The position numbers and the translations under genes were made by a program. The notes beneath the pieces are model-generated. The model saw only the letters and a list, made by a program, of their open reading frames with translations, was not told the DNA's origin and made no database searches. Positions 1 to 22,720 of a DNA stretch of 39,729 nucleotides are shown in pieces. The stretch covers positions 1 to 39,729 of the forward strand of contig JAHRWT010000064.1 in the NCBI GenBank assembly GCA_019105045.1, written 5' to 3'. This stretch comes from Sterolibacterium sp. Its GTDB lineage: Bacteria > Pseudomonadota > Gammaproteobacteria > Burkholderiales > Rhodocyclaceae. The number at the start of each line of letters is the position of its first letter. The stretch's first letter is position 1.

Positions 1-78
1 TTCGTGGTCTGGCTGGGCGCCCAGCAGGATCGTGGCGGCCTCAAGTCGGTCAGTCCTGGCTGGCTCGACATCGCCTGA
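1..78 (+). CDS. C-terminal end of a hydroxylase gamma subunit (partial)
   Basis: The first 25 codons are the tail of a gene that begins upstream of the window. They read through a GLKSVSPGW motif and stop at 76-78. The complete gamma subunit at 5072-5617 ends almost identically. Gamma subunits of type II DMSO-reductase-family enzymes (ethylbenzene dehydrogenase, steroid C25 dehydrogenase) carry one heme b, and the lysine in this motif is the expected axial ligand. A delta chaperone gene starts one base after the stop, so this is the end of a further alpha-beta-gamma-delta operon whose alpha and beta genes lie outside the window. Confidence 0.85.
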   Translation, partial: FVVWLGAQQDRGGLKSVSPGWLDIA

Positions 79-79
79 C

Positions 80-676
80 ATGTCGGAGGCACAACTCCCC
101 ATCGATGAGGCGAGCGCCATCATCGAGCAACTCAAGCCGGAAACCCTCAATTTCCTGGCCTGGAGTGCTCTGTGGAGCTCGCTCACCGAAGACGAGCTGC
201 GTGAGGCGGCCTGGCAGGCGCTGGAGCTGCCAGGCACGCTTGCCGAGGTGAATGCCGCCTACTGGAGCCTGTTTCACGCCGGCATTCCGCAGCCGCCCAT
301 CCCGGCATTGGTGCACGCCATGCTCAATCTGGACGGCGCCGGCGTGCGCGAGGACTGGATGCGTGCGGCGACCTATCTCGATCTCACCTGGTCACATGCG
401 CGCCTGCCGCCTGATCAACTCGGACCGGCCTGCGAAATCTTCGCCATGGCCTGCGAGCGAGAGGAGCCGGTGATCATCGACACGCTGGTGGAGCGTTACC
501 TGCTGCCCTGGCTGGATCAGGCGCAGAAGCTGTTGAATGCCAACGAACAGCCAGCACTTGCCACCATGCTGGCGCGTTTTCGCACGCATATCGATGAGGC
601 GCGAGCCTTGAGTGCGCGTGTGGCGCGCGCCCTGCGCGCGGCGCAGGCGGATGGTTCCGGGACCGTGCCTCATTGA
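80..676 (+). CDS. TorD/NarJ-like redox enzyme maturation chaperone (delta subunit)
   Basis: This 198-residue all-helical protein is of the TorD/DmsD/NarJ type. Delta proteins of this kind hold the alpha subunit while its molybdenum cofactor is inserted and before Tat export, and are not part of the finished enzyme. The family-typical P-D-Q-L-G-x4-E-I-F stretch is visible in the C-terminal half. It is clearly paralogous to the delta at 5680-6261, sharing NFLAWSALWS and LTEDELR. The ATG at 80 was chosen because it lies one base after the gamma stop; an in-frame start at 32 would overlap gamma. It would act in the cytoplasm on the alpha subunit encoded upstream of the window, and may also serve the orphan alpha at 6389. 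Confidence 0.85.
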   Translation: MSEAQLPIDEASAIIEQLKPETLNFLAWSALWSSLTEDELREAAWQALELPGTLAEVNAAYWSLFHAGIPQPPIPALVHAMLNLDGAGVREDWMRAATYLDLTWSHARLPPDQLGPACEIFAMACEREEPVIIDTLVERYLLPWLDQAQKLLNANEQPALATMLARFRTHIDEARALSARVARALRAAQADGSGTVPH

Positions 677-927: not shown

Positions 928-3900
928 ATGAACCCTGCAGCCCTGGCCGGCATGGCCCTCAGTCGTCGTAAATTCCTGTTTCTTTCCGGGGCCAGCCTGG
1001 TTTCAGGTCTCGCCGCCTGTCAGGGCAAGCCCTTGTTGCACTTCAGTTCGGCCGCACCGGGGGGGCTGGGGCCACGCAGCACGCCGAAACTCGGTAATTG
1101 GCAGGACTTGTATCGTCAGCGCTGGACCTGGGACAAGATCACCAAGGGGTCACACGGCTGGGCCAATTGCCGTTCGGCCTGTGAGTGGGATCTGTACGTC
1201 AAGGACGGCATCGTGGTGCGCGAGGAGCAGAGCGCTACTTATAAAGCCTCCGAGGCCGGTGTGCCCGACTTCAATCCGCGCGGTTGCCAGAAGGGGGCTT
1301 GTTATACCGAAGTGATGTACGGCCCTTCGCGCACCACCGTGCCACTCAAGCGCGTCGGCCCGCGTGGCTCAGGCCAGTGGGAGAAAATCTCCTGGGAGCA
1401 GGCGATGCAGGAAATCGCCCGCAAAACCGTCGATGCCGCCGAAAAATGGGGCACCGACACGATCTATCAGGATCTGGGGCCCAACTTCGACTTCGGCGCC
1501 AGCACGGCCGGACGTTTCAAGTTCCAGTTCATGGCCGGCGGTATTTTTGCCGACAACTGGGCGGAAATCGGCGATTTGAACGTCGGCGCTTCGATCACCG
1601 TTGGTGCAGCCCACCTGGGCGGCTCTTCGGATGAATGGTTTTTGTCGGATTTCATCGTGGTCTGGATGATGAATCCTTCGGTGACCCAGATTCCCGATGC
1701 CCACTTCCTCTACGAAGCGCGCTACAACGGCAGCGAGCTGGTGGTCATCGATCCGCAGTATTCGGCCACCGCCATTCACGCCGATCAGTGGCTGCCGATC
1801 GAAACCGGCACCGATGCCGTTCTCGGCCTGGCCGTGGCCCGCCATCTGTTGGAAACCGGCGCCATCGATCTGCCCTACATTCAGGAGCAAACCGACCTGC
1901 CGCTGCTGGCCCGCCTGGATACCGGCCGTTTCCTGCGTGAATCCGAAATGGTCGCCGGCGGCGATGAAGACCAGCTTTACATGTGGCATCCGCAGCAGAA
2001 CAAACCCGTGCCAGCACCAGGTTGTTTGAACAACACCACGCGCAACCTCAAACTCGATTTCGAACCGCCCATCGATGGTCAGTGGATGGTGAAGCTGGCC
2101 GATGGCACGGAAGTTGGCGTCGTGCCGGTCGGCGCCATGCTCAAGGAGCACCTCGCGCCCTGGACTTTCGAACACGCCGCCGAGCTGACCCATCTGCACA
2201 TCGATCAGATCAAGAAGTTCGCCGAAGGCTGGGCCAAGGCCGAGCGGCCGATGGTGTTGTCGTCCTGGGGGTCGAACCGTTTCGTTCATTCCGATCTGAT
2301 GAACCGCACCAAGATGCTGCTGTTGATGCTCAAAGGTGCGCTGGGCAAGAAAGGGGCGGGTTATCAGGCCACCGGCTGGGTTGATCTGGACGGTTTCGGC
2401 AACGCCATGCAGATGGAAAAAGGCGGCATGACCGGCCGCCTGGCGGTGATGCTCAATGCCATGCCGCCCAAGGAGCTGTTCAACGCCATCATCGACATCA
2501 TCAAGAAACGCAAGACCGAAGGCGATGTCGCGCTGGCCGGCGAGAACAACTATCTGCGCACCAAGCTATGCACCAGCGACGTGGTCGAAGTGAACCTCAA
2601 GTCGGACGGTTATCGCGCCGCGCTCAACAAGGAACAGCATGGCATGTACGAGCGCGACCTGGACGATTACTACCAGGAAGCCCACGACAAGGGCTGGGCA
2701 CCGGGTCTGCCGCGCAAGGCGCCGCCGAAGATTTTCTTCTCCGGCGGCTCCAACCTGCTGCGTCGTAACAACATGCCGCAATATCTGAAGGCCCACATCT
2801 GGGATCAGATGGAATGCATCGTCGATATCAATCCCAAGTATTCCTACACCGGCACCCAGGCGGATTACATCCTGCCGTCCGCCGGCTGGTATGAGAAAAC
2901 CGGCATCAAGTACACGATGTCCTACATTCCCTATCTGCACTACTGCGATGCGGCCGTGCCGCCACTGGCAGAAAGCAAGGGTGAGTGGGAAATCTACTGG
3001 CTGCTGACGCAGGAAATGGAGCGTTACGCCAAGGAAAAGAACCAGCCGGTGCTGGACGGCTGTGGCCGTGGCGCCATCGACATGAAAACCATCCACCAGC
3101 GCTACACCAACCAGGGTGAGCTGGGGCAGCATGACCAGGACAAGGTCACCGAAGAAATCCTGCGCTCCGAATCCACCAAAGGCATGACCGTCGAAGGGCT
3201 GCGCGAAACCGGGATCGCCAAATACACTTCCACCGGCAAGAACGTTCAGGCTACCGCGCTCAACAACCCGGACTGGAAAGGCGAAGGCGTGCTCACCACG
3301 CTCACCCGCTTCACGGTGCACAAGGAACCCTGGCCCACTTACAGTGGCCGCATCGCCAGCTTCATCGACCATCCCTGGTTCATCGATGCACGTGAGCAGT
3401 TCGCGACCCACAAGGACAGCCCGAAAACGGGGGGCAACTATTCCTTCCAGTTCATCAGCTGTCATGCGCGTTGGTCGATCCACTCAAGCTGGCGCGATAC
3501 GCCGATGATGCTGCGCCTGCAGCGCGGCGAGCCGCTGGTCTATATCAACCCGACGGAAGCCGAGAAGCTGGGCGTCAAGGATTTCGAATATGTCGAAGTC
3601 CACAATAATTACGGTTCCATCCGTATGCGCCTCAAGGTCACCGCCATGGTGCGTCCGGGCGTGGCGTATTACTACCATGCCTGGGAGCCGCATCAGTTCC
3701 CGAATCACACGTCCTACAAGAATCTGATTCCGGGCATCGTCAAACCGCTGCACTACGCCGGTGGCTATGGTCACATCAACCATGCACTGAACCGTTTCCA
3801 GCCGGGCAGCGCGGTGCATGACGTGCGGGTCGGCATCAAGCCCTGGACCGGTCAGGAAACTGCCATCAAGCCAGTGACGGTGACCGCTGAAGAGCAAGCC

Positions 3901-3933
3901 GATATCGACAAATATTCCATCCAGCCCCTGTGA
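928..3933 (+). CDS. Molybdenum-dependent hydroxylase alpha subunit (steroid C25 / ethylbenzene dehydrogenase type)
   Basis: This 1001-residue catalytic subunit belongs to the type II DMSO reductase family. Known relatives hydroxylate a hydrocarbon or sterol side chain with water in the periplasm, using a bis-MGD molybdenum cofactor. A twin-arginine signal is visible (SRRKF, residues 12-16, then a hydrophobic stretch). The first Fe-S cluster would be bound by His76, Cys81, Cys85 and Cys120; a histidine first ligand is typical of this subgroup. Asp216 in EIGDLN is the likely Mo ligand. The start has AGGTGG nearby. Beta, gamma and delta genes follow. The closest described system is steroid C25 dehydrogenase of Sterolibacterium, which has many alpha paralogs, so the exact substrate cannot be read from sequence alone. 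Cys31 sits in a lipobox-like LAAC. Confidence 0.88.
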   Translation: MNPAALAGMALSRRKFLFLSGASLVSGLAACQGKPLLHFSSAAPGGLGPRSTPKLGNWQDLYRQRWTWDKITKGSHGWANCRSACEWDLYVKDGIVVREEQSATYKASEAGVPDFNPRGCQKGACYTEVMYGPSRTTVPLKRVGPRGSGQWEKISWEQAMQEIARKTVDAAEKWGTDTIYQDLGPNFDFGASTAGRFKFQFMAGGIFADNWAEIGDLNVGASITVGAAHLGGSSDEWFLSDFIVVWMMNPSVTQIPDAHFLYEARYNGSELVVIDPQYSATAIHADQWLPIETGTDAVLGLAVARHLLETGAIDLPYIQEQTDLPLLARLDTGRFLRESEMVAGGDEDQLYMWHPQQNKPVPAPGCLNNTTRNLKLDFEPPIDGQWMVKLADGTEVGVVPVGAMLKEHLAPWTFEHAAELTHLHIDQIKKFAEGWAKAERPMVLSSWGSNRFVHSDLMNRTKMLLLMLKGALGKKGAGYQATGWVDLDGFGNAMQMEKGGMTGRLAVMLNAMPPKELFNAIIDIIKKRKTEGDVALAGENNYLRTKLCTSDVVEVNLKSDGYRAALNKEQHGMYERDLDDYYQEAHDKGWAPGLPRKAPPKIFFSGGSNLLRRNNMPQYLKAHIWDQMECIVDINPKYSYTGTQADYILPSAGWYEKTGIKYTMSYIPYLHYCDAAVPPLAESKGEWEIYWLLTQEMERYAKEKNQPVLDGCGRGAIDMKTIHQRYTNQGELGQHDQDKVTEEILRSESTKGMTVEGLRETGIAKYTSTGKNVQATALNNPDWKGEGVLTTLTRFTVHKEPWPTYSGRIASFIDHPWFIDAREQFATHKDSPKTGGNYSFQFISCHARWSIHSSWRDTPMMLRLQRGEPLVYINPTEAEKLGVKDFEYVEVHNNYGSIRMRLKVTAMVRPGVAYYYHAWEPHQFPNHTSYKNLIPGIVKPLHYAGGYGHINHALNRFQPGSAVHDVRVGIKPWTGQETAIKPVTVTAEEQADIDKYSIQPL

Positions 3934-3970
3934 GTCACGGGCCAATTGAGACGAACAGGAGGACCACACA

Positions 3971-5008
3971 ATGACGACAGCTACACCCGCCAAGCGCCAG
4001 GTTTCGATGGTGCTGGATCTCAACAAATGCCTGGGTTGCCACACCTGCAGCATCGCCTGCAAAAAAATGTGGAACACCGATCCGGGCACGGACTACGCCT
4101 ACTGGAACAACGTTGAAACCATGCCGGGCAAGGGCTACCCCGCCAACTACCCGGAAATCGGCGGGCGCACCGATACCGGCGAAGTCAAACGCGGCCAGGT
4201 GCCCAGCCTGGACACCGGCTATGGCCGTTCCTGGAGCTTCAACCACAAGGACGCTCTGGCTTCCACCGGCCAGGCGGTGAAAGTCTGGATCAAGCCCAAG
4301 GAAGAAGTGAAGTGGGGCCCCAACTTCGACGAAGACGAAGGCACCGGCCATTATCCGCAGGACAACCACTACTTCTACCTGCCCCGCCTGTGCAACCACT
4401 GCACCCACCCGGCCTGTCTGGATGCCTGTCCGCGCGGCGCCATCGAAAAGCGCGAACACGACGGCATCGTACTGGTCAATCAAGACCGCTGTCACGGCTA
4501 CCGCTTCTGTGTTGAAGCCTGCCCCTACAAAAAAGTCTATTTCGACCACGTCCGCCAGGTTTCCGCCAAGTGCATTTTCTGCGCGCCGCGCGTCGAAGAA
4601 GGCGTGGCCCCGGCCTGTGCCCGTCAGTGTCCCGGCCGCCTGCGCTTCGTTGGCTATCGCGACGACGAAGACGGCCCGATCTGGAAGCTGGTCGAAAAAT
4701 ACAAAGTCGCCCTGCCGCTGCATGGTGAATGGGGTCTGGGCCCCAACGTCTTCTACGTACCGCCGATGAGCCCACCCAAGCTGGATGCGACGGGCAAACC
4801 CACCGACGAAGCCCGCATTCCCCTGGCCTTTCTTGAATCCATGTTTGGTCCCCGCGTCAAAGAAGTGCTCGACCTGCTGCACGCCGAACGAGACAAGAAG
4901 AAGCGTGGCGAGAAGAGCGAGCTGATGGATCTTCTGATCGCCTACAACTGGAACGACAACTTCAAACTCGAACCCCAGCAGCGCGAAGTTTTCAGCGAGC
5001 ACGGCTGA
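3971..5008 (+). CDS. Hydroxylase beta subunit, four-cluster Fe-S electron transfer protein
   Basis: This 345-residue ferredoxin-like subunit resembles EbdB, DdhB and NarH. It passes electrons from the alpha active site towards the gamma heme. Four cysteine groups are visible: Cys20/23/26/30, Cys141/144/149/153, Cys174/180/184 and Cys201/204/216/220. In the third group the expected second cysteine is Tyr177 (C-x2-Y-x2-C-x3-C), which fits a [3Fe-4S] cluster as in relatives that have Trp there. No signal peptide is seen, and export by hitch-hiking on the Tat signal of alpha is the known route. It starts 37 bases after alpha with a strong AGGAGG at 3958-3963. Confidence 0.9.
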   Translation: MTTATPAKRQVSMVLDLNKCLGCHTCSIACKKMWNTDPGTDYAYWNNVETMPGKGYPANYPEIGGRTDTGEVKRGQVPSLDTGYGRSWSFNHKDALASTGQAVKVWIKPKEEVKWGPNFDEDEGTGHYPQDNHYFYLPRLCNHCTHPACLDACPRGAIEKREHDGIVLVNQDRCHGYRFCVEACPYKKVYFDHVRQVSAKCIFCAPRVEEGVAPACARQCPGRLRFVGYRDDEDGPIWKLVEKYKVALPLHGEWGLGPNVFYVPPMSPPKLDATGKPTDEARIPLAFLESMFGPRVKEVLDLLHAERDKKKRGEKSELMDLLIAYNWNDNFKLEPQQREVFSEHG

Positions 5009-5071
5009 TCTGACCATTGATGAACCCCCGGTCGTGACTTTGCGCACGGCCTTACCTGAGGGACGACCCAC

Positions 5072-5617
5072 GTGAAAAAAAACATCACCATGATCGCGGC
5101 GCCGACCGCGCCGCAGCCCGGTGGCTATATCGCCAAGGCGTATGAAGACCGTACCGTGCCCGGCATCAGCCAGGCTGAACTGGAAGTCGAAGCCAAGGGC
5201 CAGGGCTGGCAGGTTACGCTCTCCTGGGCCTGCCCGGCGCCGATCAAGAGCATCGCCCGCGAAACCGACAAATTCCTCGACAGCTGCGCCCTGCTGGTGC
5301 CCGCCACCGAAAATGCCCAATGGATCACCATGGGCTCCAAGGAAGATCCGGTCGAAGGCCTGCTCTGGAAAGCCGACCGCGAAAAACCCTGGCGTATGCG
5401 TGCCGAGGGCCTGGGTACGATGATCCGCAATGAAGCGCCGACGGACTGGACGGTGGCTGCCGAACATGCCAATGGCCGGTGGACCGTGCGTTTCGACATC
5501 GGCGAATGGCCGGTGCTTTCCCAGTTCAAGCAACTGGGCTTCGCCATCTGGTTGGGTGAGCGTCAGGATCGCGCCGGCCTCAAGTCCGTCAGTCCGGGCT
5601 GGCAGGAAATCGCCTGA
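5072..5617 (+). CDS. Hydroxylase gamma subunit, heme b binding
   Basis: This 181-residue protein resembles the gamma subunits of ethylbenzene dehydrogenase, dimethylsulfide dehydrogenase and selenate reductase. They hold one heme b with Met/Lys axial ligation and hand electrons to an external acceptor. Met87 (in WITMGSKEDP) and Lys171 (in LKSVSPGW) are the best ligand candidates. The start is a GTG with GAGGG upstream; an in-frame stop near 5057 rules out a longer form, and ATG 5090 is the alternative. I see no cleavable signal peptide in the N-terminus, although the mature enzyme should be periplasmic. The gene lies 63 bases after beta. Confidence 0.85.
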   Translation: MKKNITMIAAPTAPQPGGYIAKAYEDRTVPGISQAELEVEAKGQGWQVTLSWACPAPIKSIARETDKFLDSCALLVPATENAQWITMGSKEDPVEGLLWKADREKPWRMRAEGLGTMIRNEAPTDWTVAAEHANGRWTVRFDIGEWPVLSQFKQLGFAIWLGERQDRAGLKSVSPGWQEIA

Positions 5618-5645
5618 ACCGGCGGTCCACCTGAAGTTGCAAAGC

Positions 5646-5672
5646 GTGTAAAGCTTGTAGAGCTCGTAGAGG
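5646..5672 (+). repeat. Three imperfect 9-nt tandem repeats before the delta gene
   Basis: GTGTAAAGC, TTGTAGAGC and TCGTAGAGG follow each other without gaps between the gamma stop and the delta start at 5680. The last unit supplies the purine-rich ribosome-binding site. The first gamma-delta pair in the window has only one base between the genes, so this spacer is specific to this operon. Confidence 0.6.
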
Positions 5673-5679
5673 GTCTGCC

Positions 5680-6261
5680 ATGACTGATGAACTGCCCGCC
5701 GCTGCGGAGACGGATGCTCCCGCGCCGCTGGATGCCGAGGCTTTTGAACAGATTGCCGAGCAGCTGCGACCACAGACCCTCAACTTTCTTGCCTGGAGCG
5801 CGCTGTGGAGCACGCTCACCGAGGATGAGTTGCGTGCTGCGGCCTGGGAAGCACTGGAACTACCCGGTGATTTCGAAGCCATCCGCATCAGTTACTGGAA
5901 TACTTTTCAGGTCGGCATTCCCCAGCCGCCGATTCCGGCACTGATCCACGCCCTGATGAATATCGACGGCGCCGGTGCACGTGAAGATTTCATGCGCGCT
6001 GCCGACCACCTGGGCCTGTCCTGGGGCCATGCCCGCCTGTCGCCCGATCAGCTCGGTCCAGCCTGCGAAATCTTCGCCATGGCGGTGGAACAGGAAGAGC
6101 CGGTGATCATTGCGCACCTGTCCAAGACCTACCTGCTGCCCTGGCTTGATCTGGCCCAGGAGCAACTGAATGCCAGTGCCAACCCTGAGCTGGCACAGAT
6201 GCTGGCCTTGTTCCGTGAACACATCAACGAAGCCATCCGCTTGATCCCTGTGGTCGGTTGA
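5680..6261 (+). CDS. TorD/NarJ-like redox enzyme maturation chaperone (delta subunit)
   Basis: This 193-residue paralog of the chaperone at 80-676 shares NFLAWSALWS near residue 36, LTEDELR and the S-P-D-Q-L-G-x4-E-I-F stretch. It should bind the alpha subunit in the cytoplasm, help insert the molybdenum cofactor and delay Tat export until folding is complete. It is the last gene of the complete operon, 62 bases after gamma, and has its own ribosome-binding site (GTAGAGGG). It is the nearest chaperone to the solitary alpha gene downstream and may serve both alphas. The N-terminal 15 residues are unlike the first copy. Confidence 0.85.
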   Translation: MTDELPAAAETDAPAPLDAEAFEQIAEQLRPQTLNFLAWSALWSTLTEDELRAAAWEALELPGDFEAIRISYWNTFQVGIPQPPIPALIHALMNIDGAGAREDFMRAADHLGLSWGHARLSPDQLGPACEIFAMAVEQEEPVIIAHLSKTYLLPWLDLAQEQLNASANPELAQMLALFREHINEAIRLIPVVG

Positions 6262-6328
6262 CGGGCCTTTGCTGCTGTGCCATGCGGCGTGCAGGATGGC
6301 AGAAAATCCGGTAAGATGTACGGCTAAT

Positions 6329-6342
6329 TAACACGGGTGTTA
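6329..6342. promoter_or_regulatory. Palindromic operator before the solitary alpha gene
   Basis: TAACAC-GG-GTGTTA is a perfect 6-bp dyad around the same GG centre as the longer palindrome at 835-858. The shared core is ACACGGGTGT. It lies 46 bases before the second alpha start and 11 bases after a TAAGAT that could be a -10. The two alpha genes are therefore probably under the same regulator, with lower affinity expected here because the arms are shorter. Confidence 0.6.
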
Positions 6343-6388
6343 GATAGCCGTTTCGACACGCGTCATAAGACAATACGAGGAGAACAGC

Positions 6389-9388
6389 ATGGGTCGCAGT
6401 CCAGCCTGGGGCAGCGTGTCGGAAAGTCGTCGTCGTTTCTTGATCAAGGCCGGCATGGCCAGCGCGGCTGGTGCGGCACTCAGCATGTTCGGCTGTGGCC
6501 GGGCACCGCTGCAGCATTTTCAGGGCGCGACGGCTGGTCGTTTCGATCTCGGCCCGCGCAGCGTCGCCAAGCTCAACAACTGGCAGGATCTCTATCGCCA
6601 GCGCTGGACCTGGGACAAGGTGGTGAAAGGCTCGCACGGCTGGGCTAACTGCCGCTCGGCCTGCGAATGGGATTTGTATGTGAAGGACGGCATCGTCGTT
6701 CGCGAGGAACAATCCGCCACTTACGAGGCGTCCGAGCCGGGCATACCGGATTTCAACCCGCGCGGCTGCCAGAAAGGTGCTTGTTATACCGAAGTGATGT
6801 ATGGCCCTTCGCGTACCACCGTGCCGCTCAAGCGCGTCGGCCCGCGCGGTTCGGGCCAGTGGGAAAAAATCTCCTGGGAACAGGCGATCCAGGAAATCGC
6901 TGAAAAAACCGTTGATGCCGTGGAGGAATTCGGCACTGATACGGTCTTTCAGGATCTGGGCCCCAACTTCGATTTCGGCCCCAGCACGGCGGGACGCTTC
7001 AAGTTCATGTATCAGGCCGGCAGCCTGTTTGCCGACATGTGGGGCGAAATCGGCGATCTCAACTTCGGTGCCACCATGGCGCTGGGCGCTGCGCAGATCG
7101 GCGGCTCGTCGGATGACTGGTTCCTTTCCGATTATCTCGTCGTCTGGATGATGAATCCTTCGGTGACCCAGATTCCCGATGCCCATTTTCTTTACGAAGC
7201 GCGTTACAACGGCGCGGAACTGGTGGTCATCGATCCGCAGTACTCGGCCACCGCCATTCATGCTGACCAATGGCTGCCGATCGAAACCGGCACCGATGCG
7301 GCGCTGGGACTGGCCGTTGCCCGTCATCTGCTGGACGTGGGTGCCATCGACCTGCCTTTTCTGCAGGAACAGACCGATTTGCCGCTGCTGGTGCGCATCG
7401 ACAATGGTCGTTTTTTGCGTGAGGAAGACCTCAAGGAAGGTGGCCGCCCCGATCAGCTCTATATGTGGCATCCGGCCAACAATGCGCCGGTCGAGGCCCC
7501 CGGCTGCACGGGGAATACCACGCGCAAGCTGACGTTGGATTTCGCACCGCCGATCGATGGCCAATGGCCGCTCAAGCTGAAGGACGGCACGGAAGTGCTG
7601 GTTGCCCCGGTCGGTACCTTGCTCAAGGAACATCTGGAGCCGTGGACTTTTGAACACACGGCAGCGGTGACCAAGCTGCATATTGAGCAGATCAAGACGT
7701 TTGCCGAAGGCTGGGCCAGGGCCAAACGGCCCAAGGTGCTGTCGTCCTGGGGTTCAAATCGTTTCGTCCATTCCGACCTGATGAACCGCGCCAAGATACT
7801 CTGCCTGATGCTGAAAGGTTCGTTCGGCAAGAAAGGCTGCGGTTACGAAGCCACCGGCATCGTCGATATGGAAGGCTTCAACAACGCCATGCGCATGGAA
7901 AAGGAAGGCTTGCCCGGCCGCCTGGGGGCCTTGATGGGCATGATGACGCCGGGCGAGCTGTTTTCCAACGTGCTGGAAATCGTCCGCCAGCGCAAGACCG
8001 AAAGCGATTTCATCCTTGAGACGGAAATGAAATATCTCAAGGAAAAACTCTGCAGCAGTGACGTGGTGGAAACCAACTTCAAGTCGCCCGGCTACCGCGC
8101 AGCCATCGTCAAGGAACACGAAGGTATGCAGCCGCGCTCACTGGAAGCGTATTACCAGGACGCGCGCGAGAAAAACTGGTCGCAGGGCCTGCCGCGCAAG
8201 GCGCCGGTGAAGATTTATTTTTCCGGCGGCGCCAACATGCTCCGCCGCAGCAACCTGCCACAGTACCTGAAGGCTTTCATCTGGGACGACATGCATTGCA
8301 TCGTCGATATCAACCCCAAGTATTCCTATACAGGCACCCAGGCTGATTACATCCTGCCGGCGGCCGGCTGGTATGAGAAATCCGGCATCAAATACACCAT
8401 GTCCTACATTCCCTACCTGCATTACTGCGACGTGGCCGTGCCGCCGCTGGCGGAAAGCAAGGGCGAGTGGGAAATCTTCTGGCTGCTGACGCGCGCCATG
8501 GAAAACTACGCCAAGCAGAAGAATTTGCCGGTGCTCGATGGCTGCGGGCGCGGTGCGAATGACTTCAAGACCTTGCACCAGCGCTATACCAACCAGGGCG
8601 CACTGGGGCAGCACGATGACGACAAGGTGATGAAGGAAATCCTGCATGGCGATGCCACTGAAGGCATGACCATCGAAGGGCTGAAGCAGACCGGCATCGC
8701 CAAATTCACTTCCGCCGGCAAGCCGGTGGCGGCCGATGCCATCAACAATCCGGACTGGAAAGGCGAAGGCGTGATGACCACGCTGACCCGCTTCACCACC
8801 CACAAGGAGCCCTGGCCGACTTACAGCGGCCGCATCACCAGTTTCATCGATCACCCCTGGTTCATTGAATTCGGCGAACAGTTCCCGGTACACAAGGACA
8901 GCCCCAAGGCCGGCGGCGATTATCCTTTCTACTTCGTCAGCTGCCATGCCCGCTGGTCGATCCATTCGACCTGGCGCGATACGCCCATGATGCTGCGCCT
9001 GCAGCGCGGCGAGCCGCTGGTCTATCTGAATCCGCGCGATGCAGAACGCATCGGCGTGAAGGATTTCGAATATGTCGAGATTTTCAACAACTATGGCTCG
9101 ATCCGTATGCGTTTGAAAGTCACCGCCATGGTGCGGCCCAGCGTGGCTTACTATTACCACGCCTGGGAACCGCATCAATTCGCCAATCACGAATCCTTCA
9201 AGTTCCTCATTCCCGGCATCGTCAATCCGCTGTTGATGGCCGGCGGCTATGGCCAGATCAACCACGCCATGAACCGCTACCAGCCGGGCAGCGCGGTGCA
9301 GGATACGCGAGTCGGCATTCGTCCCTGGACGGGGCAGAAAACCGGCGTGCATCCGGTGGTCAAGGAAGCCGTTGCAGCAGATGCGTGA
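6389..9388 (+). CDS. Solitary molybdenum hydroxylase alpha subunit (steroid C25 dehydrogenase-type paralog)
   Basis: This 999-residue paralog of the alpha at 928-3933 is collinear with it and identical over long stretches. It has a Tat signal (SRRRF, residues 13-17), Fe-S ligands His83, Cys88, Cys92 and Cys127, and a likely Mo ligand Asp223. Residues around the Mo ligand differ from alpha 1 more than the rest does, which suggests a different substrate or position of attack. No beta, gamma or delta gene follows; a convergent unrelated gene starts 31 bases later. It probably borrows beta, gamma and delta from a sister operon. ORF integrity and intact cofactor ligands argue against a pseudogene. 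Cys36 follows the signal hydrophobic region, as Cys31 does in alpha 1. Confidence 0.88.
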   Translation: MGRSPAWGSVSESRRRFLIKAGMASAAGAALSMFGCGRAPLQHFQGATAGRFDLGPRSVAKLNNWQDLYRQRWTWDKVVKGSHGWANCRSACEWDLYVKDGIVVREEQSATYEASEPGIPDFNPRGCQKGACYTEVMYGPSRTTVPLKRVGPRGSGQWEKISWEQAIQEIAEKTVDAVEEFGTDTVFQDLGPNFDFGPSTAGRFKFMYQAGSLFADMWGEIGDLNFGATMALGAAQIGGSSDDWFLSDYLVVWMMNPSVTQIPDAHFLYEARYNGAELVVIDPQYSATAIHADQWLPIETGTDAALGLAVARHLLDVGAIDLPFLQEQTDLPLLVRIDNGRFLREEDLKEGGRPDQLYMWHPANNAPVEAPGCTGNTTRKLTLDFAPPIDGQWPLKLKDGTEVLVAPVGTLLKEHLEPWTFEHTAAVTKLHIEQIKTFAEGWARAKRPKVLSSWGSNRFVHSDLMNRAKILCLMLKGSFGKKGCGYEATGIVDMEGFNNAMRMEKEGLPGRLGALMGMMTPGELFSNVLEIVRQRKTESDFILETEMKYLKEKLCSSDVVETNFKSPGYRAAIVKEHEGMQPRSLEAYYQDAREKNWSQGLPRKAPVKIYFSGGANMLRRSNLPQYLKAFIWDDMHCIVDINPKYSYTGTQADYILPAAGWYEKSGIKYTMSYIPYLHYCDVAVPPLAESKGEWEIFWLLTRAMENYAKQKNLPVLDGCGRGANDFKTLHQRYTNQGALGQHDDDKVMKEILHGDATEGMTIEGLKQTGIAKFTSAGKPVAADAINNPDWKGEGVMTTLTRFTTHKEPWPTYSGRITSFIDHPWFIEFGEQFPVHKDSPKAGGDYPFYFVSCHARWSIHSTWRDTPMMLRLQRGEPLVYLNPRDAERIGVKDFEYVEIFNNYGSIRMRLKVTAMVRPSVAYYYHAWEPHQFANHESFKFLIPGIVNPLLMAGGYGQINHAMNRYQPGSAVQDTRVGIRPWTGQKTGVHPVVKEAVAADA

Positions 9389-9419
9389 ACGATTCGAACC
9401 AGGCTGCCACGCTGCCGGG

Positions 9420-10196
9420 TTACTGCTTCAAGTTGCTGATGCAGCGCGACAGGGACTCCTGGGGATTTTTGCCGTCAATGTTGCAGGTTCCCGGGCTGGC
9501 CGGCTGCGGGGCAGCGGGGATGGTTTCCTGGCGTGAGCCGGCGCGCGGTGGCGGTGCGGCGGCATCCATCTTGTCCGTAATGGCTGGGGCGCCGCTGCCC
9601 AGATTGCTGCGGGCGGGCTTGCTGGCAGGCAAGCGGGCTGGCGCGCTGGATCGAGCGGTACCGAATGTTGACAGCCGACTCAAGGCGAGCTGGGTTTCGA
9701 GCAACTCCTTGTGCGTATCGGCCAGTACCTTGCGCAGCTCAAGCAACGCGTCGCGATCGCGCTGCATGCGAAAGTTCTCTTTTTCGATTTCGATCAGGGC
9801 CATCTGCTGGTCTTCGATCCGCTCAGCCTGGCTGTCCAGCCGCGTGGCAAACAGCGGATAGGCCAGCCAGGCGCCGGCCAGCAGACCGATCGTCAGCATC
9901 AGCAGGGCAATGAAAAACGTGCGTGCCAGCGGTGGCGGATCGGCCGGTACGGTGACATAGACAACTTCCTTGATGATTTCACGGCTGTCGGCAACACTGT
10001 CGGCCTGTTCAGTGGAGAGGCTGTGCGCACCGCCCTCTGGCGAGAGGCCGACAATACGTCTGAGGTGATAGCGTAATTGCAACCAGCGGATACGCAATGC
10101 CGCGCCGCCGCGCTGAAAGAATGCGCCGACAGGATTGCTGCTGGCCGGTTGGGTTGCGATGGATTGCGTCTCTTCGGTGATGTTTTTTTCGCTCAT
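9420..10196 (-). CDS. Single-pass membrane protein with coiled coil, unknown function
   Basis: I do not recognise a family for this 258-residue protein. Residues 1-90 are polar and presumably cytoplasmic. Residues about 93-115 form one hydrophobic transmembrane segment. Residues about 118-178 are rich in E, Q, R and L in a heptad-like pattern and should form a coiled coil. The last 80 residues are rich in A, P and S and end with two cysteines. The layout recalls cell-envelope scaffolding or polar-localisation proteins, but that is only architecture. It is transcribed towards the end of the solitary alpha gene. Confidence 0.7.
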   Translation of the reverse strand: MSEKNITEETQSIATQPASSNPVGAFFQRGGAALRIRWLQLRYHLRRIVGLSPEGGAHSLSTEQADSVADSREIIKEVVYVTVPADPPPLARTFFIALLMLTIGLLAGAWLAYPLFATRLDSQAERIEDQQMALIEIEKENFRMQRDRDALLELRKVLADTHKELLETQLALSRLSTFGTARSSAPARLPASKPARSNLGSGAPAITDKMDAAAPPPRAGSRQETIPAAPQPASPGTCNIDGKNPQESLSRCISNLKQ

Positions 10197-13644: not shown

Positions 13645-15171
13645 ATGCGTGTGCAAATACTTGCGATTCCGCTGGCCCTGTCGATGCTTCTGGTTGTGCC
13701 GGACAGCCTGCTTTCGGTCGCGCACGCGGCAAGCAAATGGCAGACGCTTGCCAGCCAGGATGGCAAGCGTATCGACATTGACAAGGCTCGCATCGCCCGA
13801 ACGGGTCCGGCCCAGACCATGGCCTGGAGCCGACTGGTGCTCGATCGCGATCTGGTTGTCGATGCGCAGCGCTATAACCGGGTTGAAGTACTCAATCGCT
13901 ATGACTGTGCGAGTGCCGGTTTTGTTACCGTCAAGCGCATCTATTTGCACGATGCGCTGCCCATCAAAGAGGAAGTCATCGACAGTGGCGCGCAGCGGCG
14001 GATCAGCGCGCAGGCAGGCAGCGTCGATGCCAGGCTGCTCGACGAAGCCTGCAAACCGCGCACGGCGGGCGAAATGCAGGCGGTTGCCGACCGTGCAGCC
14101 GCATCGGCCAAGGCAGCGGTCGAGGCGCCGCTGACGGCCAAGGTGATCCTGGCCGATGTCCGCCAGCTTGCCGAGTCTGCTGAAGAGGCAAGGGAAAAGG
14201 CAGCGCGCACGCTCACCGTCGCCGAACAGCGGATAGAGCTGCCAAGCAAGGCCGAACTGGCCGCCCAGGCGGAAAAGGACAAAGCCTTGCTGAATGAAGT
14301 GGCGCCACCCGCCACGACAATGAATGCGAATGCAAGTGCTGCGTCGGCGACGCCGCCCGCAGCAACCGTGAAGCCTCCGCCGGTGGTCTTGCCGGTGCCT
14401 TCCGCAAGCAGTTTGCGTCGCCCGTTGCCGCGCCGCGCGGCAACGCACAAGGTGGTTGCGCCCGCCGTGGTTGAGACGGTCGCCGCCACACGTCCGGCCA
14501 TTCCCTGGCGCTACGAAGGTGAAGGCGCGCCGGCCAACTGGGGCACGCTGCGCAGTGATTACGCGACATGCGACACCGGCAAGCGTCAGTCACCGATCGA
14601 CATCCGCGACAGCATCAATGTCGATCTTGAACAGATCAAGTTTGATTACAAGCCGACTCTGTTCCGTATCATCGATACTGGCCACACGGTGGAGGCGCAT
14701 GTCGGCGAAGGCAGCACGCTGACCGTCATGGGCAGGCAGTACGAACTGGTACAGCTGCATTTTCACCGGCCAGCCGAAGAGCGCATCAACGGCAAGGTTT
14801 ACGACATGTCCGTGCATCTGGTGCATCGCAGTCTGGACGGTCAGCTGGCCTATCTGGCCATCCTGCTGGAAAAAGGCGATGCGCATCCGCTGATTCAGAC
14901 GCTGTGGAACAATCTGCCGCTGGAAGTCGGTCAGGAACTGCTGCCCGAGGTGTCGATCGATCCTGCCAGCCTGCTGCCGGAAAATCGTGCCTACTGGACT
15001 TACATGGGGTCATTGACGACACCGCCATGTACCGAAAACGTGCTCTGGCTGGTACTGAAACAGCCCGTGCAGGTTTCGCCCGAGCAGGTGGCCATCTTCT
15101 CGCGGTTGTATCGTTACAACGCGCGGCCGATCCAGCCGACCAACAATCGGTTGATCAAGGGGTCGCGCTGA
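13645..15171 (+). CDS. Exported alpha-carbonic anhydrase with N-terminal adhesin-E-like domain
   Basis: This 508-residue exported protein has a signal peptide ending near AHA (residues 26-28). Residues about 30-130 resemble the surface-adhesin E family (SKWQTLAS, a YDCASAGF block). An Ala/Lys/Glu-rich helical region and a Pro/Ala-rich linker (about 150-285) follow. Residues about 287-506 are an alpha-carbonic anhydrase: zinc ligands His372 and His374 (LHFH) and His391 (HLVH), QSPIDI, and Thr458 in SLTTPPC. The enzyme interconverts CO2 and bicarbonate, here in the periplasm or at the surface. Usual alpha enzymes are about 230-260 residues, so the N-terminal half is an addition. AAAGGA precedes the ATG. 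Confidence 0.9.
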   Translation: MRVQILAIPLALSMLLVVPDSLLSVAHAASKWQTLASQDGKRIDIDKARIARTGPAQTMAWSRLVLDRDLVVDAQRYNRVEVLNRYDCASAGFVTVKRIYLHDALPIKEEVIDSGAQRRISAQAGSVDARLLDEACKPRTAGEMQAVADRAAASAKAAVEAPLTAKVILADVRQLAESAEEAREKAARTLTVAEQRIELPSKAELAAQAEKDKALLNEVAPPATTMNANASAASATPPAATVKPPPVVLPVPSASSLRRPLPRRAATHKVVAPAVVETVAATRPAIPWRYEGEGAPANWGTLRSDYATCDTGKRQSPIDIRDSINVDLEQIKFDYKPTLFRIIDTGHTVEAHVGEGSTLTVMGRQYELVQLHFHRPAEERINGKVYDMSVHLVHRSLDGQLAYLAILLEKGDAHPLIQTLWNNLPLEVGQELLPEVSIDPASLLPENRAYWTYMGSLTTPPCTENVLWLVLKQPVQVSPEQVAIFSRLYRYNARPIQPTNNRLIKGSR

Positions 15172-21872: not shown

Positions 21873-22063
21873 AGCAACGGTAGCAGGCATTGGGATGGGA
21901 TCTTGTCTGCACATGCTGCCGAGGGCGGGCGGATTTAATTAGAATGGCGGACGCGGCAACCGTGGCCGCCGGGACAGGCGCCAGCAGCGCCGAATACGCT
22001 GTCCCTGACAGAGATTGCAATGCGCTTGCCACACCTTACCGCCCACAAACCGGACGCGACAAC

Positions 22064-22720
22064 ATGCCTCTTTCACACCTGATTGCCAACAATCGTCGCT
22101 GGGCTGAACGGCAGCGTGCCGAGGATCCCGAGTTCTTCAGCCGACTGGCTGCCCAGCAGAATCCGGAATATCTCTGGATCGGCTGTTCCGACAGCCGCGT
22201 GCCCGCCAACCAGATCACCGGCCTGGCTCCCGGCGAAGTCTTTGTTCATCGCAATGTCAGCAATCTCGTGGTGCATAGCGATCTCAACTGCCTGTCGGTG
22301 ATTCATTACGCCGTCGAAGTGCTCAAGGTGCGCCACATCATGGTGGTTGGCCACCATGGCTGCGGCGGCGTGCGCGCTGCCCTTGAGGAGCGCGATCACG
22401 GCTTGATCGACAACTGGCTGCGGCATGTGCAGGATGTCTATTACCGGCATCGCAGCAATCTGGATGGTCTGCAGCTGGATGAACGGGTGAATCGTCTGTG
22501 CGAGCTCAACGTCATCGAACAGGTGATGAATGTCTGCCGTACCACCATCGTGCAGAATGCCTGGGCCAATGGCCAGCGCATCTCGGTACATGGCTGGGTG
22601 TATGGCCTGAATGACGGCCTGCTGCACGAGATGTGTCATTCCACTTCGTCCAGGCTGGAGTCCGAGCAGACCTACAGCATGGCACTGAAGAACATTGGCT
22701 GTTGCGGCAACGGCAGTTGA
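22064..22720 (+). CDS. can: Beta-class carbonic anhydrase
   Basis: This 218-residue cytoplasmic zinc enzyme interconverts CO2 and bicarbonate and supplies bicarbonate for carboxylases. Zinc ligands are Cys41 (CSDSRVP, with Asp43 and Arg45), His97 and Cys100 (GHHGCGGV). Length and sequence match E. coli Can. ATG 22064 was chosen by homology over a longer frame from 21890 with unrelated sequence. It complements the exported alpha-class enzyme at 13645-15171. Confidence 0.95.
   Translation: MPLSHLIANNRRWAERQRAEDPEFFSRLAAQQNPEYLWIGCSDSRVPANQITGLAPGEVFVHRNVSNLVVHSDLNCLSVIHYAVEVLKVRHIMVVGHHGCGGVRAALEERDHGLIDNWLRHVQDVYYRHRSNLDGLQLDERVNRLCELNVIEQVMNVCRTTIVQNAWANGQRISVHGWVYGLNDGLLHEMCHSTSSRLESEQTYSMALKNIGCCGNGS

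Follow-up and report, generated by a model that had tools for sequence, protein, structure and literature searches.

The solitary catalytic subunit gene alpha2 of a Sterolibacterium sp. genome very probably encodes a second functional sterol hydroxylase catalytic subunit, which shares the beta-gamma pair(s) of the gene array that it terminates. Sharing of beta and gamma subunits was explicitly proposed in 2018 for Sterolibacterium denitrificans, which has eight alpha genes and fewer beta-gamma sets (Jacoby et al., 2018, PMC6016249) and, as far as the available text of that paper goes, the locus described here adds a further example to an arrangement already on record. What is added is a comparison within the genus, where the same alpha occurs with and without an adjacent, near-identical copy of the beta-gamma genes. 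The analyzed stretch of DNA (hereinafter the window; 39,729 nucleotides) is the whole of contig C108 from a 2.36-Mb genome assembly that consists of 121 contigs and is 84.8% complete. Together with this genome, the genus set includes G027, G087 (L021, Gw_Eff_bin_535) and G121 (L022, Gw_Eff_bin_349), that is, four genomes, L021 and L022 being Sterolibacterium sp. isolates. For the identity comparisons of alphas, betas and gammas, the first start codon within each open frame was used.

The array and its terminal alpha subunit

The first 9.4 kb of the window encode, all on the forward strand, a gamma' tail, delta', alpha1, beta, gamma, delta and alpha2. Alpha1 (928-3933), the molybdenum-bisMGD catalytic subunit with a Tat motif, is 89% and 90% identical to the first alphas of the G027 and G087 arrays, respectively. 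It is followed by beta (3971-5008), the iron-sulphur electron-transfer subunit, which scores above the cut-off of TIGR03478 (486.4 against 480.7 bits) and is 92% identical to three copies in G027, and by gamma (5072-5617), the heme b subunit, with a match to TIGR03477 that is under the cut-off (E 3.8e-19) and 89-90% identity to the G027 copies. The next gene, delta (5680-6261), had no match in Pfam or NCBIfam and was assigned as the SdhD-type maturation chaperone on the basis of its position and of its identity to the delta in the same place in G027 (84%) and G087 (83%); it ends 127 bp upstream of alpha2, on the same strand. After the end of alpha2 (6389-9388), a gap of 31 bp separates the array from a convergent gene on the reverse strand (9420-10196), for which the Pfam search gave no match and which has a homologue directly 3' of gamma2 in G027 (51.5%) and of alpha2 in G087 (27%). 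Farther to the right are the genes for ribosomal proteins S9 and L13, COQ7 and others unrelated to the system. The truncated module at the left end, which the initial annotation overlooked, consists of the 3' tail of a second, heme b gamma gene (gamma'; 1-78), cut by the contig edge, and of a second delta, an SdhD-type chaperone gene (delta'; 80-676). The 25 residues of the gamma' tail correspond to residues 157-181 of the window gamma, 18 of them (72%) being identical; delta' (198 amino acids) shows 70% identity to the window delta and 74% to that of L022.

When beta, gamma and delta were used as queries against the window, none of these genes was found downstream of alpha2, and the alpha2 frame is an uninterrupted one of 999 amino acids, in agreement with the original description of an intact alpha that is not followed by partner genes. 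The identity of the protein is 86-90% to the alpha2 proteins of its congeners, 75% to alpha1 and 40% to an alpha encoded on contig C12 of the same genome. It aligns with the type II DMSO-reductase alpha profile TIGR03479 over positions 2-913 of 913 with 801.4 bits, under the curated cut-off of 984.75; given that alpha1 of the complete operon misses the same cut-off (796.1 bits), the latter may exclude this branch, the comparison having been made between the two alphas of the window. Both molybdopterin domains, PF00384 and PF01568 of Pfam, are above their cut-offs, and residues 12-968 match the alpha subunit of ethylbenzene dehydrogenase (EbDH; 2ivf_A, E 2.6e-131). This homology spans the full length of the subunit; however, alpha2 scores far under the cut-off of the EbdA equivalog model (479.8 of 2000 bits). 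Ethylbenzene dehydrogenase has a single alpha-beta-gamma set.

Residues H83, C88, C92 and C127, which we take to be the ligands of the [4Fe-4S] cluster FS0, and D223, presumably the molybdenum ligand, are found in alpha2 and throughout the 13 aligned alphas, and all five align with identical residues in 5e7o_A. Four of the five (H83, C92, C127 and D223) are matched in EbDH, where C88 is opposite a proline and the cysteine is two residues off. The earlier statement that alpha2 keeps all cofactor ligands thus holds for the putative ligands. The 2018 review names just the molybdenum aspartate and a lysine, in its own numbering, in its available text (PMC6153880). A twin-arginine signal is suggested by the motif SRRRF from residue 13. 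Judging by its sequence, alpha2 is an intact molybdenum alpha subunit of the S25DH kind within the type II DMSO reductase family.

The initial annotation offered, as one of two possibilities, that alpha2 has become independent. Such a one-subunit hydroxylase, working by itself or passing electrons to an unrelated acceptor, would fit the absence of partner genes downstream and the recurrence of solitary alphas in relatives (G083b and two of the eight G027 alphas). Nevertheless, the putative FS0 ligands, which would serve no purpose in the absence of a relay, are intact in all of the aligned alphas, and S25DH1 of S. denitrificans was active solely when alpha1, beta3, gamma3 and SdhD were all supplied, constructs short of the four components being inactive (PMC6016249); for alpha alone, the verdict of the authors comes, in the text available, from preliminary experiments only. 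We therefore disfavor independence and consider it highly improbable.

The alpha2 locus in the genus and the search for partner genes

An orthologue of alpha2 is encoded in each of the four genus genomes (90-91% identity in G027, 86% in both G087 and G121), and the order alpha1-beta-gamma-delta-alpha2 is common to all four. In G121, alpha2 is cut by a contig end, so that the region downstream is readable in three genomes: a beta-gamma pair follows alpha2 in G027 and is absent at this place in the other two, the window and G087. A homologue of the convergent gene comes immediately after the array in all three and, accordingly, what distinguishes the genomes is whether or not they have a beta-gamma block at this place. 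It is conceivable that a beta-gamma pair really follows alpha2 in the window and was skipped as a repeat, given that near-identical copies like those in G027 are the type of repeat that breaks short-read assemblies; however, a junction of the same type is found in G087, a separate assembly, and we regard an artefact as very unlikely.

At E <= 1e-150, G027 encodes eight alphas, along with six betas besides NarH. The block on the alpha2 side of its array is 98.9% identical to that on the alpha1 side over 1608 bp that start at the ATG of beta and extend one base beyond the stop codon of gamma. About 700 kb away, a third alpha adjoins a beta-gamma pair that is 96.8% identical over a nearly equal stretch. 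The three beta proteins are 99-100% identical, compared with 78-84% for the adjoining alphas; likewise, dS is 0.02-0.05 for the betas and 0.47-0.55 for the alphas, which implies that copying or conversion of beta took place long after the alphas had diverged. For gamma, this holds for the tandem pair only (dS 0.03, as against 0.31 to the third copy). Given that the gamma next to the third alpha is 94-96% identical to the other G027 gammas, the identity of the partners is strict for beta and not for gamma. Thus, nearly one beta sequence adjoins three different alphas in G027, those of the alpha1 and alpha2 classes included. An assignment of G027 to S. denitrificans was considered and not adopted: its three close alphas are 78-84% alike, compared with 72-82% for the published four.

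In the alpha tree, the four alpha2 orthologues are grouped at 100/100, with the window and G027 sequences as sisters and L022 and then G087 outside; in the alpha1 part of the tree, the window sequence groups with that of G087. None of the six inner branches of the beta tree is starred, and the trees accordingly favor neither the gain of a beta-gamma block in G027 nor its loss in the other genomes. One could tentatively view the array as a modular device in which the alphas diverge for sterol range and a common beta-gamma block is copied or gene-converted from beta start to gamma stop, a scenario that we find possible and somewhat less probable than its negation. If so, the solitary state of alpha2 would be ancestral and the additional beta-gamma of G027 a late copy.

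The remainder of the source genome was inspected for other S25DH-like genes. Contig C71 ends within the start of another alpha (124 amino acids; 88% identity to alpha2 and 71% to alpha1), and its flank (within 3606-10008, search orientation) aligns with the flank to the left of the first G027 alpha; the right flank of the window aligns with the right flank of G027. This third alpha start in a syntenic context suggests that the array probably began with alpha0-(beta0)-gamma'-delta', and a single array appears to have been split by the assembly, probably in the order C71 flank-alpha0-(beta0)-gamma'-delta'-alpha1-beta-gamma-delta-alpha2, where the parentheses mark the missing beta0. Beside an alpha of the distant type (39-40% identity), contig C12 encodes a beta and a gamma that are more distant (59% and 28%, respectively), and contig C37 gave a weaker, NarH-like beta match. 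Altogether, the close-type genes of this 84.8% complete genome are alpha1, alpha2 and the C71 fragment, as against one whole beta-gamma pair and the gamma' tail.

The possibility that alpha2 has a dedicated beta-gamma pair elsewhere deserves consideration; a candidate is the beta0-gamma' module that was lost where the contig breaks off. The gamma' tail and delta' at the start of the window, together with the failure to find a matching beta0 in the assembly, favor this possibility, and near-identical copies can vanish or collapse in short-read assembly. Given the 84.8% completeness of the genome and its breaks at these very repeats, further beta-gamma genes such as beta0 may exist unseen, and one of these may be the true partner of alpha2. 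Against this, the lost module belongs by position to alpha0, considering the synteny of the C71 flank with the flank of the first G027 alpha, and G087, which also lacks beta-gamma next to alpha2, has just one close-type beta in an assembly that is 93% complete. In the source genome, at 84.8% completeness, no beta or gamma of alpha2's own was found elsewhere, the rest of the S25DH-like genes being the gamma' tail and those of C12. A dedicated partner hence appears unlikely, and sharing of the array's beta-gamma remains the preferred reading.

Selection on alpha2 and class-specific positions

The dN/dS values of alpha2 are 0.095 for the window-G027 pair and 0.108 for the window-G087 pair, both members of the latter being without an adjacent beta-gamma of their own; the values for alpha1 are similar (0.128 and 0.077, respectively). 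Alpha2 is thus under purifying selection. This finding bears on the interpretation of alpha2 as a decaying duplicate en route to loss, for which the lack of partners downstream could be cited: in addition to the low dN/dS values, the frame is full-length and free of stops, the Tat motif and the putative ligands are present, and an orthologue is found in all four genomes, one of them contig-cut. We consider decay scarcely credible. Both the one-subunit enzyme and the decaying duplicate were rejected on the strength of the putative ligands, the constraint and the component dependence of S25DH1 in the published account.

The positions that distinguish alpha1 from alpha2 are unevenly distributed along the protein. 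When the window and G087 are compared, there are 98 such class positions, only 3 of which are in residues 61-180, where 13.5 are expected (hypergeometric P 0.0002, assuming independent positions). We take this segment to be the FS0 domain that meets beta, as in the structures of EbDH and NarGH. Sixteen of the 98 positions are in residues 181-240, around the molybdenum aspartate, 23 in 481-600 and 15 in 721-780. The FS0 region is not the sole quiet stretch because residues 241-300 hold none in 53. With G027 added, 73 class positions remain, of which 2 are in residues 61-180 versus 10.5 expected (P 0.00068); with all four genomes, there are 52, none of them in residues 41-160 and, the L022 alpha2 being cut, nothing past residue ~841 is countable.

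Low synonymous divergence between alpha1 and alpha2 at residues 61-180 was observed in G027 and L022, a sign of recent conversion, and for this reason the test with the window and G087 was used. In these two genomes, synonymous changes at 61-180 match those elsewhere (pS 0.80 and 0.43; 0.48 and 0.57), so that recent gene conversion does not explain the pattern. The class differences between alpha1 and alpha2 thus appear to avoid the [4Fe-4S] (FS0) domain.

Probable subunit sharing, known relatives and operator-like sites

The suggestion of the initial annotation that alpha2 docks onto the beta-gamma of the neighboring operon is the best-supported one, by virtue of the near-identical beta-gamma copies in G027, the constraint on alpha2 and the precedent of S. 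denitrificans; the idea itself is not new (PMC6016249). Under this scenario, alpha2 would be made without a dedicated beta-gamma, would mature with the help of the delta chaperone(s) of the array and would assemble with the beta-gamma pair(s) that its array encodes, after which the predicted Tat signal of alpha2 would export the complex with beta in tow. Electrons would pass from the substrate to the [4Fe-4S] cluster of alpha2, then to the clusters of the shared beta, to the gamma heme and to cytochrome c. Alpha1 and alpha2 would differ mainly near the active site, and the array would provide two substrate specificities, or three, probably, with alpha0, on one electron-transfer base.

Several lines of published evidence from S. 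denitrificans are relevant in this context. The beta3gamma3 and beta4gamma4 pairs are 99% identical; recombinant alpha2 of that organism was active with beta3gamma3, alpha3beta3gamma3 was weakly active, and both complexes were of alpha-beta-gamma size (PMC6016249). In enriched wild-type S25DH1, other alphas were always present as impurities (PMC6016249). An observation that speaks against sharing is that S25DH4 purified from the wild type carried the beta4 and gamma4 from the locus tags adjoining alpha4 (PMC6016249). In the 2018 review, the tally is seven additional alphas and five additional beta and gamma genes, and S25DH-like enzymes acting on different sterols are described as complexes that the alphas of the isoenzymes "may be used to assemble" (PMC6153880). 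In the available text of the literature on the S. denitrificans enzymes, we found neither a native subunit-exchange experiment nor a native alpha2-beta complex.

S25DH1-4 of S. denitrificans resemble the system described here in the combination of several alpha paralogues, fewer beta-gamma sets and an SdhD chaperone (PMC6016249); in contrast, the solitary alpha of the window ends a tandem alpha-beta-gamma-delta-alpha array. The C26-hydroxylase-type enzymes S26DH1 (DH5), S26DH2 and DH5-8 belong to the same class as the window enzymes and were coproduced with the same chaperone (PMC7411048), but their gene clusters include their own beta and gamma (PMC7411048, PMC11061730) and they are distant from alpha2, the distant type being represented in the source genome by the C12 alpha. 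The wider family is also covered in PMC6208644. Enzymes of the S25DH type serve the anaerobic removal of sterols and the enzymatic synthesis of 25-hydroxyvitamin D3. In this genus, one and the same alpha stands alone in two genomes and has beta-gamma beside it in a third, which offers a natural test for the exchange of subunits, and the alphas of the genus represent a compatible set for one expression platform.

Palindromes resembling operators precede both alphas of the window, AAAACTTACACGGGTGTAAGTTTT 5' of alpha1 (835-858) and TTAACACGGGTGTTA 5' of alpha2 (6328-6342), both on the forward strand. At zero mismatches, the pattern TNACACGNGTGTNA has two forward matches in the source genome, 5' of alpha1 and at 6329, and no control matches; a narrower palindrome pattern matched the alpha2 site alone. 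The plain TNACACGNGTGTNA pattern has no match in G087 or G083, the site before alpha2 of G087 being one base different, and the control pattern has one match each in G027 and G087. No such site was detected within 160 bp of the leftmost alphas of the arrays (those of C71, G027, G087 and L022) or of the third alpha of G027. The block and an upstream GTAGGATG-like stretch are kept before alpha2 of G027, G087 and L022, and the alignment of the five sequences from the four genomes, window alpha1 included, has 30 invariant columns. The operator that the initial annotation ascribed to alpha2 is therefore a real palindrome, but not one that is exclusive to this gene. The interpretation that alpha2 is regulated on its own is weakened by the sister copy before alpha1 and by a further palindrome site in G027, located ~0.9 kb 5' of a different beta gene; the motif common to alpha1 and alpha2 argues instead for co-regulation. 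Alpha2 hence carries a predicted promoter-operator-like site of the alpha1 type.

S25DH-type genes at the contig ends

Besides the two alpha (molybdenum catalytic subunit) genes of the steroid C25 dehydrogenase (S25DH) type in the window, the start of a third, alpha0, is located at the end of C71, another contig of the same genome (positions 3-401, minus strand). This start is syntenic with the left flank of the array in G027, a genome of the same genus, and over the short length available is 94% identical to the first alpha of that array, compared with 75% to window alpha1 (928-3933). Approximately 0.3 kb upstream of alpha0, on the same strand, a phage-integrase-family (tyrosine recombinase) gene is encoded (681-1655), which may be of the housekeeping XerC type.

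The window itself begins within another S25DH module, of which the tail of gamma' (heme b subunit) and a complete delta' (chaperone) are present (1-676); this module did not figure in the initial annotation.

Operator-like site and alpha pair in related genomes

A perfect form of the operator-like palindrome that precedes alpha2 (6389-9388) was identified in G027 (C1:1704051-1704064). It precedes, by about 0.9 kb, the beta gene of a different S25DH-like operon, which hints at a single regulon. In a further Sterolibacterium sp. contig, L022, the alphas at 8242 and 13699 are nearly identical in their first residues, and their synonymous divergence stays low as far as residue 180 or so. This points to gene conversion of the part that holds the export signal and the region of the [4Fe-4S] cluster FS0.

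Outside the genus, another solitary alpha is found in genome G083 (L063, about 6956-9904), and a Halieaceae contig (L027, 1408-5859) carries two tandem alphas with no beta in between.

Carbonic anhydrases of the window

The window also encodes two carbonic anhydrases of unrelated families, one eukaryotic-type (13645-15171) and a second at 21890-22720; the stretch behind which the eukaryotic-type gene stands yielded a weak, below-cut-off match to Adhesin_E.
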